From IMG/VR virus record IMGVR_UViG_3300028400_000006, positions 1 to 64,000 of that record: a DNA stretch of 64,000 nt, one strand, 5' to 3'. Made by a program: the position numbers and the translations under genes. Below the pieces are notes generated by a model, which saw nothing but the letters and a program-made list of their open reading frames with translations, ran no database searches and was not told where the DNA came from. This document shows positions 1 through 15,788 of the stretch, piece by piece (positions within the stretch are counted from its first letter, which is position 1; each line of letters starts with the position of its first letter). The DNA comes from a virus.

Positions 1-2068
1 CATCGCCAGCGGCACCAGCGGCACCAGCGGCACCAGCGGCACCAGCGGCACCAGCGGCACCGGCGGCACCGGCGGCACCAGCATCGCCAGCCCGCTTGGC
101 TTCCTCTTGCAATTCACGTGCGGCCTTTCGACCTTCTTCAATCGCGCGTTGCAGACCAGCACGAATATCGTCGGGCAAACCTGGCGCAATCTCCGGCATA
201 TTATCGGCCAGCTCAACAGGCCGCTCAATCGTTACATCGCTGTAACGCTCTTCTCCCGCTAGTCCAACAGGCCGCCCCAACGGCCCCTGCTGAAACCGTG
301 CAATCAAGCGCTGCAACTCCGCCTCGTCGTCTGTAGTATCCGCAGGCTCGACAGGCTGCTCTTCCACCGGCGAAACAGGCCGCTCATTCATCGATGAAAC
401 AGGCTGCTCCTCCACCGGCGAAACAGGCCGCTGTTCCGTTACACCGATGTCACGTTCGGCACTCGAACGTGACACGGTGGCGGCACCAGACCGCCACCGC
501 GTGTCACGCCCCTCCAGTAGCGGGTCCGGTGAAAACTCATCGCCAATCACCGCATCGAAGAAAGCGTCCAGACGGCCACGATACCGCTCCAGCTTACCCT
601 TCGCATGCAGCTCTTCCCACAACTGGCGGAACATCTCGCGGCGAATATCACGGTTCGACATCGCCTGAATGGCCGACAGCCGCGCCTCAAACCCCTCGTC
701 CTCAGCCTTTACGCGAGCGGCGCGGGCGGCGTGAGACATGCGCGCATGCCACTCCGGCACCCTATCCATAATACCGCCGACATACTCGGAACCCACCGGC
801 ACGAACGAAAAATCCTGCCTCGCCACCAGCCGCTTCAGCAGCTCCAGCGTCGCATGCGGTGGCAGCGTCTCAGGCTCACCATCGACACGATAGCGCCCCT
901 TCTCCAGCCGCCACCTAACAGGTGCCGAACTCCATTGCGGCTGCGTCCTGAAGAACCGCGACACCCCCGACGCGAACAGGTCATTGCCGTTCACATCGCC
1001 ACGCATCACACGCTCGACCGTGGGCAACATGGGCACATCACGATGCCTGCGCAGCCACAACGCCTGCGACACCCCATCTATAATCGCCGGCACGAACATA
1101 GGCGGCAGCCCGTCCGTCTCCATCACATGCGGCGCAAAGGTAGGATACAACTCCGCATGTGACGCCGGCGGCAACTCTGGCGACACGACACGAAAGTCTT
1201 CCATACTACCATCCAGCGTGTGCGCCAGCGCCGCCTCGGCACAGGCGGCGAAAAAGAAAAACCGTTCCGTCCGCGTAAACGCCCACGTCCTCGTGAACAG
1301 GAACGTGCGCAGCGGCAGCGGCGCAAGCCCTGTTGCCATCGGGCGCCCCGCCTCCTTCTGCAGCAACGCCCGCGCATGAATAGCACCCAACAGACCAGGC
1401 ACATGCATGTTCAGACAACGGCTCATGGCCACGCTCAACGCCACCAGCGCCGCCACCAAGTGCAGACGGCGATGCATTGCCTTCGACGTCGGCAGCCCAT
1501 CGAGCAAATCAACCAGCCGACCATACAAAATGGCCGCATATGTGGCCACCGGCAACTGCGACAACGACTCCTGTGACTCCCACGCCGCCCGCGTCGCCTG
1601 CTTCACCAGCCGGCCATACAGGCCATCAGCTAATACACCATAGGCGTGCTGACTGTAGCTCAACTGCATCGCCCAGCTACGATTGTTCGGCAGTCGCTCC
1701 ACCACATCCTTCACATAAGGCCACACTTCCTTCACATAGGCCAGCACCGCCTCGTGCTCCCGCTGCGTCCACGTCGCCAGCGACGCCAGATACGGAGACG
1801 CCTTCACCTTCGGGCGAGGCCGCCCGCTTTTCGCACCCTGCACGTCGATACCGGTATGCTCCGCCCGCAACAAACCGGAACTATAACCAGAACGCACCAA
1901 TGAGAGCAGCAAAGAACGATACATGTCGCCGGCGTCGCTGCCGCGCGCAGGATGGCTGTTGAGCAGCGCCGCCAGCGGCGTGTCGTCGTTAAGTAGTGCC
2001 TTAATGCCACCTTCGGGCGAAGTCAGTAGGCGATCAACATACAACGTAAGATACTCTGGGTATCGCAT
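1..2068 (-). CDS. Large unrecognised protein, C-terminus beyond the left edge
   Basis: The minus strand is open without a stop from ATG at 2068 to the window edge (689 codons). The start is preceded by a perfect AGGAGG at 2075-2080 with good spacing. I do not recognise a family. The first ~540 residues look globular and mostly helical. The tail is low complexity: near-repeats of the type RPVSPVEEQPV, then a helical Glu/Ala/Arg stretch, then a run of Gly-Ala-Ala triplets that continues to the edge. The triplet tail resembles collagen-like spacers in phage structural proteins, but transcription away from the early genes and the control region at its 5' end also fit an early protein. Two copies of the 16-bp palindrome lie inside the frame and encode ERYSDVT and ERDIGVT. 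Confidence 0.85.
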   Translation of the reverse strand, partial: MRYPEYLTLYVDRLLTSPEGGIKALLNDDTPLAALLNSHPARGSDAGDMYRSLLLSLVRSGYSSGLLRAEHTGIDVQGAKSGRPRPKVKASPYLASLATWTQREHEAVLAYVKEVWPYVKDVVERLPNNRSWAMQLSYSQHAYGVLADGLYGRLVKQATRAAWESQESLSQLPVATYAAILYGRLVDLLDGLPTSKAMHRRLHLVAALVALSVAMSRCLNMHVPGLLGAIHARALLQKEAGRPMATGLAPLPLRTFLFTRTWAFTRTERFFFFAACAEAALAHTLDGSMEDFRVVSPELPPASHAELYPTFAPHVMETDGLPPMFVPAIIDGVSQALWLRRHRDVPMLPTVERVMRGDVNGNDLFASGVSRFFRTQPQWSSAPVRWRLEKGRYRVDGEPETLPPHATLELLKRLVARQDFSFVPVGSEYVGGIMDRVPEWHARMSHAARAARVKAEDEGFEARLSAIQAMSNRDIRREMFRQLWEELHAKGKLERYRGRLDAFFDAVIGDEFSPDPLLEGRDTRWRSGAATVSRSSAERDIGVTEQRPVSPVEEQPVSSMNERPVSPVEEQPVEPADTTDDEAELQRLIARFQQGPLGRPVGLAGEERYSDVTIERPVELADNMPEIAPGLPDDIRAGLQRAIEEGRKAARELQEEAKRAGDAGAAGAAGAAGAAGAAGAAGAAGAAGD
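8..79. repeat. 9-bp tandem repeat encoding Gly-Ala-Ala
   Basis: Six perfect copies of agcggcacc are followed by two copies of ggcggcacc. The unit is a multiple of three, so it lies in frame in the minus-strand gene and encodes repeated Gly-Ala-Ala. Copy number may vary between isolates. Confidence 0.9.
231..246. promoter_or_regulatory. 16-bp palindrome copy 1
   Basis: GTTACATCGCTGTAAC, perfect 6-bp half-sites around TCGC. It lies inside the leftward gene, where it encodes RYSDV on the minus strand. Confidence 0.6.
438..453. promoter_or_regulatory. 16-bp palindrome copy 2
   Basis: GTTACACCGATGTCAC, one mismatch at the tolerant third position of the right half-site. It lies inside the leftward gene and overlaps a perfect hairpin (449-473). 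Confidence 0.55.
449..473. other. Perfect 10-bp inverted repeat inside coding frame
   Basis: GTCACGTTCG and CGAACGTGAC flank a 5-base loop. Allowing one bulged base, pairing extends outward over CACCG and CGGTG. It lies within the leftward gene beside palindrome copy 2. Function unknown; it could be a transcript hairpin or part of a larger binding site. Confidence 0.6.
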
Positions 2069-2648
2069 AGCACACCTCCTAGGTTAGTAAGCCTACAAGC
2101 GAAACGAAACACAAAGGAAGCACTTTGTCAACCCCATCTAAACTAAGTTTCCACGGAAAATTTCATACTTCATAGTGCTAGGTAAAGATATAACTTCCCT
2201 GAGTCGGGGATGTAACCGATGTCGCAAACCACGCCGCGCCGCAAGGCGTTGAAATATTCATGTAAAAGGGCAGCACCAATTACCCACAAGTATCGTGCGG
2301 GGTTGGATTCACGTTTTTCTACGGCAGAAGGGCGAATTTCAAAAAACGATAACCATAGTATAATACGAGGGAAGCACTTTAATACAACTCAACGCGATGC
2401 TTTCCCTTAGGGGCGTCGATAAAAAGGTAACAAAAACATGGCGACGAAACCTACGAAATCGCGTAAAACCAACAGGTTATGCGTATAATAGGTAAGGATA
2501 CGACACACCGCTAGGTTACCTAAAACGTTAATTATACGTTAGTTTATATATACATATAATGTATAAAAGCATGCCACATTTGCATTTTTCATCAAAAACG
2601 CCAACCGCCGGCCGGCAGGTGCCGGTCGGCACTATCCCCCTGCACAAC

Positions 2649-2664
2649 GTTACGCCGATGTAAC
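2649..2664. promoter_or_regulatory. 16-bp palindrome copy 3
   Basis: GTTACGCCGATGTAAC, the left half-site differing at one base. It abuts the first of the three direct repeats in the divergent control region. Confidence 0.6.
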
Positions 2665-15269: not shown

Positions 15270-15362
15270 GAAGATGAATTGAAGGGTGGTGAGGCTGCAG
15301 GCGGAAGTTCGATCCATCAATGCTGCTTGCGCTACTATCCAGAAAGATCAGGAGCGGATCAA

Positions 15363-15788
15363 ATGACCAGAGAAGAGGCGCTAGAGATCGAAAGGAAGCT
15401 GCAGGAGGCTGGCTCTATCTCGGCGTTGGCGGGTGTGCTTGGCGTATCACGCACAACTGCCCACCAACGTCGACGCCTGGCTGAAGCTGTGCTTGGCCGT
15501 TCCTTGGTGTCGCCGGTGCGCGGTGCGACAAAAGCTGCTCTGGCGAAGGCGATTGCGGAGGCGGTGGTGGAGGGCCGCATTGGTCCCTGGTTTGGGGATG
15601 TGGCGAAAGAGTATGATAGCCACGAGCGTTGGGTGCGTGATATAGCCTCCCGTGCCGGCATCAAGCGCAGGTGTGTGTATCTGCCAGAAGAAGTATCTGA
15701 CGCTGCGCTTAGAAATGCTATTCGGGATCTCATCCGTTACACCGGTGTAACTGAAGCGAAATTGGTGCGGCGCATGGAGGGCACGTGA
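15363..15788 (+). CDS. Helix-turn-helix protein, candidate regulator
   Basis: ATG 15363 with AGGAG at 15349-15353; in-frame codons upstream are not needed. 141 residues. Residues ~18-42 (SISALAGVLGVSRTTAHQRR) form a clear helix-turn-helix, and a second possible one spans ~78-100 (FGDVAKEYDSHERWVRDIAS). It is therefore probably a DNA-binding protein. It is the only compact HTH protein in the early region and its own 3' end carries the most perfect palindrome copy, so it is a candidate to bind that element (speculative). Overlaps the next gene as TGATG. Confidence 0.7.
   Translation: MTREEALEIERKLQEAGSISALAGVLGVSRTTAHQRRRLAEAVLGRSLVSPVRGATKAALAKAIAEAVVEGRIGPWFGDVAKEYDSHERWVRDIASRAGIKRRCVYLPEEVSDAALRNAIRDLIRYTGVTEAKLVRRMEGT
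15736..15751. promoter_or_regulatory. 16-bp palindrome copy 12, fully symmetric
   Basis: GTTACACCGGTGTAAC is a perfect 16-bp palindrome, including the centre. It lies in frame in the HTH gene (encoding RYTGV), about 25 bases before the next ribosome binding site. It is the last copy; none is seen in the replication or virion genes. Confidence 0.7.

Follow-up and report, generated by a model that had tools for sequence, protein, structure and literature searches.

Introduction

The described systems nearest in kind to the element reported here are the stoperators of mycobacteriophage L5, the repressor sites of phage phiC31, which are palindromes of ~17 bp in the early region, and the SAS and ESAS elements of Cluster K phages. 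To our knowledge, such dispersed-site systems come mostly from actinobacterial phages (L5, phiC31, Cluster K). In the account of PMC5712189, Cluster A stoperators occur as many dispersed copies, mainly between genes, with a consensus that differs among phages, and according to PMC4557955 repressor sites, 18-30 in number, are spread over the genomes of phiC31 and L5. The Cluster K elements, as described in PMC3203893, are limited to the non-structural half of the genome and tied to start codons: the SAS is an asymmetric 13-bp sequence, typically 3-7 bp from the start, and the ESAS consists of paired imperfect 17-bp inverted repeats just upstream, with little RNA-pairing support and a consensus that varies by subcluster. 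Here, we analyze a window of 64,000 nucleotides (bases 1-64,000 of the 65,268-base virus record IMGVR_UViG_3300028400_000006), which carries twelve copies of a 16-bp palindrome, GTKACAYCGRTGTAAC, in its early region. With a probability of about 0.6, these palindromes would be operator sites of one dimeric DNA-binding protein, acting as roadblocks on early transcription.

As in L5, the sites of the window are dispersed, and all nine located from 3033 to 15736 lie at most 74 nt from a start codon. The L5 stoperator, however, is an asymmetric 13-bp sequence (GGTGGc/aTGTCAAG) kept in one orientation to transcription, whereas the window has a 16-bp palindrome in a podovirus-like phage; the L5 repressor is gp71, and here the binder is only a candidate. 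Palindromes dispersed in an early region are also a feature of phiC31, from which the window differs in the sequence of the sites and in a lysogeny that we only infer. With the Cluster K elements the window sites share the restriction to non-structural genes and the tie to starts, but each is a single 16-bp palindrome centred 1-74 nt from the start, and no common 13-mer that might be a companion SAS was seen by eye in the 50-nt flanks. What is new here is the start-codon link of the nine sites from 3033 to 15736.

The Palindrome Array

The twelve sites are the following:

231-246, site 1, GTTACATCGCTGTAAC, inside a leftward open reading frame (ORF) starting at 2068
438-453, site 2, GTTACACCGATGTCAC, in the same leftward ORF as site 1; its right half recurs inverted (448-474)
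2649-2664, site 3, GTTACGCCGATGTAAC, in a divergent intergenic region
3033-3048, site 4, GTGACACCGATGTAAC, flanked by promoter-like site P1 and the first rightward gene, whose start was placed at 3075
3610-3625, site 5, GTGACATCGGTGTAAC, between promoter-like site P2 and the gene at 3650
3986-4001, site 6, GTAACATTGATGTAAC, directly upstream of the gene at 4014
5588-5603, site 7, GTTACACCGAAGTAAC, covering the stop codon of 5339-5602 and preceding the gene at 5616
6777-6792, site 8, GTGACACCAGTGTAAC, in the 3′ end of ORF 6179-6856, ahead of the gene at 6859
8431-8446, site 9, GTTACACCGATGTCAC, including the ATG of the gene at 8440
9895-9910, site 10, GTTACATCGGAGTAAC, including the GGAG before the ATG at 9914
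11133-11148, site 11, GTTACAGCGAAGTAAC, covering a stop codon and preceding the gene at 11153
15736-15751, site 12, GTTACACCGGTGTAAC, in the 3′ end of a helix-turn-helix (HTH) gene, upstream of the gene at 15785

Not one of 100 shuffled sequences attains this count. At three mismatches or fewer the pattern gives 26 matches, of which 24 are the twelve sites counted on both strands, and the other two (21922 and 30990) score far under the twelve-site set; the shuffles average 1.84 matches with a maximum of 8, and the reversed pattern matches once in the record. A matrix made from the sites scores them at 21.8-28.1 and the next best place at 6.5, a gap that is still wide even though training on the same twelve sites inflates their own scores. 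All of them fall in bases 1-15,751 of 65.27 kb (the first 24%; P 4e-8 under uniform placement), and neither pattern nor matrix finds a thirteenth among the record's final 1,268 bases. The first-pass annotation of this DNA, which had proposed a phage regulator acting on many dispersed sites, had placed all twelve copies correctly; the pattern is enriched over shuffles, and the virion half does not carry it at equal density, so that this proposal is not refuted.

Eight positions, the outer GTnAC...GTnAC, are invariant in every site, and site 12 alone is a perfect palindrome. The flanking base is C before 8 of the 12 sites and G after 9 of them. One half reads GTGAC in five sites, and in four of these it is the upstream half relative to gene sense. 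A protein-coding origin of the sites was considered and rejected, as they fall in gaps as well as in genes; sites 231 and 438 share both ORF and frame.

A cluster search for 16-bp imperfect palindromes in nine sequences returned, for the window, these twelve sites and a GC-rich group of 21 copies. The latter, GCGGCGCTGGCGTCGC-like, is spread across the record in and between genes (e.g., 1771, 2673, 4890, 25428 and 61771; at most 3 copies in shuffles), and is perhaps low-complexity, coding sequence.

The Link to Gene Starts

From site 3033 to site 15736, the distances between the site centre and the next start codon are 34, 32, 20, 20, 74, 1, 11, 12 and 41 nt. Seven of these nine sites lie at most 40 nt upstream of a start, against 7.6% of the region (P 5e-7), and all nine lie within 74 nt, hence within 90 nt. 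The test used our by-eye list of 26 rightward start codons, left unsettled for 5921-6179; with a cruder gene list the counts at 40 and 90 nt were equal. Of the three remaining sites, 2649 is in the divergent gap and 231 and 438 are in one leftward ORF. The dispersal across the early region noticed at first pass is thus correct, as are the stop codons within 5588 and 11133, the ATG (8440) within 8431 and the GGAG within 9895, but a patternless scatter is not what these nine sites show.

In the divergent gap, three copies of a GCGACGCAGGCGACGCTTAATTCCC-like repeat (2682-2784) adjoin an AT-rich stretch; our guess is that they could be an origin.

DNA Sites and the Proposed Roadblock

If the palindromes acted as RNA hairpins, changes in one arm should tend to be compensated in the other. 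Over the six-pair stem, 87.5% of the 72 pair cells do pair, against a shuffle mean of 89.0%, and there is no change on both sides, as would be expected of independent half-sites; four of the six stem pairs are invariant and therefore uninformative on pairing. Positions 3/14 are unpaired in 6 of the 12 sites, as had been noticed from the letters alone, and positions 6/11 in 3 of them, with none compensated, which argues against an RNA hairpin and for a site read in DNA. The hairpin is disfavoured by the pair counts both in the window and in the related clade described below.

Two promoter-like sites precede the first rightward genes:

2923-2951, + strand, promoter-like site P1, TTGACA-17-TATAGT with TG ahead of the second hexamer (consensus match only)
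3445-3473, + strand, promoter-like site P2, TTGACA-17-TATAGT with TG ahead of the second hexamer (consensus match only)

Each matches the consensus at 11 of 12 positions, and they stand out by score and by duplication, since they sit in a 74-nt repeat that is 80% identical (2921-2994 and 3443-3516). The order is the same at both, with the promoter-like site followed by a palindrome (3033 or 3610) and then by a gene, without overlap, a layout that would be that of a transcription roadblock. The leaders after P1 and P2 can form stems, in the first case with no gain over shuffles (z -1.3), and may somewhat resemble, by analogy, the antitermination leaders that follow early promoters. The stretch 3479-3610 folds much better than shuffles (z -5.0), and a long inverted repeat with 19 of 21 pairs (3550-3607) stands directly before site 3610.

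Under the reading that we favour, a dimer would recognize GTKACA-YC half-sites, and the regulator would act on early operons from the twelve sites. Bound protein would block the elongating RNA polymerase, as a stoperator-like roadblock, and so turn the early genes down. This mode of action is suggested because most sites are in a transcribed region, directly before the next gene and downstream of P1 and P2. The outcome would be repressive, with a role in early shut-off or in lysogeny, and the binder is most likely encoded by the phage. The regulator proposed at first pass by analogy with L5 retains sequence support in its DNA sites, which are of dimer type and dispersed, lie downstream of early promoter-like sites and are close to gene junctions, and the analogy is therefore a fair one in principle.

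Different Arrays in Related Phages

Fourteen loci encode a polymerase 28-35% identical to that of the window, and a megablast search with bases 1-16,000 matched no phage record. A related podophage, the Rhizobium phage RHph_TM27A (MN988461; our loci L047 and L048), has in the cluster search 25 copies of a different palindrome. At three mismatches or fewer, with spacers of 4 or 3, GTTACCT(N3-4)AGGTAAC is found at 61 places in RHph_TM27A and at 100, 67, 60, 38 and 72 places in five IMG contigs (G027, G028, G032, G033 and G038), whereas the reversed sequences give 0-6 places each. These contigs are close to RHph_TM27A (67-82% identity in the major capsid protein, MCP, and 54-78% in TerL), and the window is far from it (MCP 32%, TerL 34%, polymerase 33%). 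In RHph_TM27A, 19 of 67 matches are at most 40 nt from an annotated start and 21 of 67 are intergenic, where random places would give 7.1% and 9.4%, respectively; six places fall under both spacers and, if counted once, leave 17 of 61 near starts and 20 of 61 intergenic.

The RHph_TM27A array resembles that of the window in its outer GTTAC/GTAAC arms, in favouring starts and in showing no sign of pairing preserved by double changes, and the phages are related. It differs in that its GTTAC arms are separated by 8 or 7 bp, against 6 in the window, and in its ACC/GGT core, and arrays of its type occupy 38-100 places genome-wide, against twelve early-region sites. The window holds no GTTACCT-N4-AGGTAAC site (4-bp spacer, at most two mismatches). 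A different palindrome array in related phages is what would be expected if the binders change specificity between lineages.

A relative with the same array as the window was sought and rejected: exact scans of viral contigs returned two sets of stretches (12 and 26), none with more than one exact window-type site. One of these stretches is from a distant relative (G023, locus L016; polymerase 33%), in which a perfect site is accompanied by two weak ones (15.9 and 15.0), where the 95th percentile of the best shuffle score is 16.8. The same genome shows, at 22.9-26.3 kb (L162), four copies of TTACGCCGGCGTAA and three of GATAACNNGTTATC, of which one more copy is at 3.9 kb in L161. No comparable array is present in KPP25, G002, G005, G010, G011, G013 or G014, several of which are fragments, or in the first 50 kb of Rollin and of HMO-2011; G002 has four copies of one 14-bp palindrome (2-3 in shuffles), and one short palindrome occurs three times in the first 2 kb of HMO-2011. 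Among 194 loci of at least 8 kb, a non-random sample in which many were chosen for holding one of the two motifs and several overlap, the dispersed gapped palindromes beyond 1e-9 are all of the GTTACCT type, except for a regular 234-bp tandem (L211), and the GTTAC arms of the window reach 6e-12.

A tyrosine integrase is found in two of the seven array-bearing records searched (G032 and G040), with no match in RHph_TM27A, so that part of the array-bearing clade may be temperate. In G032 it adjoins the DUF927 gene (L170, 1092-2120).

Tentatively, a podophage lineage, of which the window phage would be a distant member, may carry, spread over its own DNA, from 12 up to about 100 sites for a dimer, which prefer gene starts where tested; specificity would differ by sublineage, with outer GTTAC arms that persist and site-bearing genes that turn over. 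We know of no phage operator array as dense as the GTTACCT arrays, and a literature search with limited terms, over open-licence papers, returned no report of these or of the window array. If true, the lineage would possess a self-silencing or immunity system distinct from those of actinophages, and podophage arrays with two palindromes would be separate cases of promoter-distant transcription control by phages, which would let one ask how dozens of sites switch specificity together. The lineage includes a phage with a deposited genome and a named host, RHph_TM27A, and would be testable at the bench if the isolate has been kept.

Candidate Binders

Two proteins of the window are candidates:

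15363-15788, + strand, 141-aa protein with weak HTH matches
19507-20241, + strand, D5-like transcription regulator (PHROG 323, E 2.2e-13)

The first had been proposed as binder in the first-pass annotation. Its ORF (15279-15788) matches HTH_30 (E 0.0019), HTH_23 (E 0.0041) and HTH_28 (E 0.0042), all below the cut-off, and the protein weakly matches phrog_836, a "late transcriptional activator" (E 0.057, 20 residues). The structure model shows helices only and, with a pLDDT of 44, is unreliable. No relative was found among 77 pattern matches in viral contigs, 593 in genomes, or phage records. One palindrome, site 12, is inside the 3′ end of its gene. There would be about one chance in three that this protein binds the palindromes. 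The second candidate has a firmer family match, together with GcrA and Myb-like matches below the cut-off, but its gene is outside the array.

Two proteins of the relatives were discarded as binders. A 92-aa HNH-like protein is present in all five array-bearing relatives compared (L048, 6863-7141, that is, RHph_TM27A 46863-47141; 88% identical in G027), but it is nuclease-like and gives no hit in the window below E 1e-3. For a triple-HTH protein of RHph_TM27A (24225-24776), a homologue is present in only one of these five relatives. This protein (L047, 24225-24776) and the one at 28451-29575 of G027 are mutually related and contain three tandem HTH units.

Objections and Alternative Explanations

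Several observations weigh against the roadblock reading. In the L5 type an operator covers an early promoter, but P1 and P2, at which one would look for a classical operator, are both free of palindromes; these two are consensus matches and nothing more, and a promoter on the leftward side was not recognized. The promoter-like sites in 1-17,000 number 8 against 6.5 in shuffles, which is no excess. Sites 231 and 438 are in one leftward ORF and one frame, beside repeated sequence, and could be mutual copies. The lysogeny-type integrase (PF00589), resolvase (PF00239) and HTH_3 families, each searched as one Pfam family, give no hit in this record at the E <= 1 level. The 15363 candidate has sub-threshold HTH matches, no relatives found and an unreliable model. 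No near relative of the phage was found in which to look for the sites. Gene-by-gene control fits poorly, as site-bearing genes differ between related genomes: those common to a pair number 0-3 among 10-43 comparable genes (lowest P 0.27).

The alternative that survives best, although unlikely, is that the sites belong to a regulator of the host, used by the phage for timing its early genes. The phage-encoded binders are only candidates, which leaves room for such a regulator. In a collection of 84,980 species, however, a scan for the exact form GTTACAYCGRTGTAAC yielded 110 stretches, none longer than 8 kb (80 of the 110 listed), and among 284 loci scored with the matrix just three have at least two sites of at least 18, with two exact copies in one alone (L253). 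No host regulon of the motif is thus visible, for the one exact form sought, in multi-site loci and in a collection that may omit the host; of the three bacterial multi-site loci (L184, L253 and L284), the first two were inspected and gave no regulator lead.

A parS-like or nucleoid-like role, in which the sites would serve replication, partition or DNA compaction instead of gene control, is still harder to sustain. Rhizobial plasmid parS sites are also 16-bp palindromes, and in the related clade the sites span whole genomes and the genes bearing them differ between genomes, as such a role would allow. In the window, by contrast, the sites keep to the early region and are near gene starts, and ParB_N (PF02195), also searched as one family, has no match in the record (E <= 1) or in the seven array-bearing relatives searched.

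That the sites act at translation or as RNA, as mRNA hairpins or start-associated signals, is improbable to a slightly greater degree. The strong association with start codons, with a GGAG inside 9895 and a start codon inside 8431, is what such signals would show, but site 2649 is outside any called gene, 231 and 438 are not at a start, and the unpaired positions of the window sites are uncompensated. Over 277 sites of the related clade (four-spacer sites with at most two mismatches, a limit that itself lowers double changes), 342 deviations affect one arm and 30 both arms, against 37.9 expected if independent, and the central pairs are below expectation (93 against 105.2 and 68 against 77.6); in favour of RNA pairing, 13 of these 30 still pair.

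The least probable is an activator of middle promoters like Mor of phage Mu, which, as described in PMC4390567, recognizes a 16-bp element, with its centre at -43.5, that holds two inverted repeats of 5 bp: the geometry matches (two 5-bp arms in 16 bp, GTNAC-N6-GTNAC), as does, weakly, the phrog_836 hit of the 15363 protein, but start codons are 1-41 nt from eight of nine site centres, so that a transcript start ~43 nt downstream would land in or at the gene, and there is no promoter-like excess over shuffles (though an activated promoter need not fit the consensus).

Genome Context

Judged by the open frames, genes are rightward from ~3.06 to 26.6 kb and mostly leftward elsewhere, with two long rightward ORFs at 35.1-37.9 kb in that otherwise mostly leftward part. 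Beyond the array region and within it, the following proteins were recognized:

8877-9893, sliding-clamp-like protein (PHROG 947 match)
14079-15269, DUF2201/VWA protein (family match)
16948-18912, family A DNA polymerase (family match)
18909-19580, PD-(D/E)XK nuclease (family match)
20299-22173, SNF2 helicase (family match)
23736-26606, DUF927 protein (family match)

Internal virion and portal-like proteins are encoded on the opposite strand (family matches). The ends of the record have no exact overlap over 11-200 bases, so it may be incomplete. Past position 64000, the record end (L007) carries head-to-tail repeats of GGCGCCGCCTGCGTATT.

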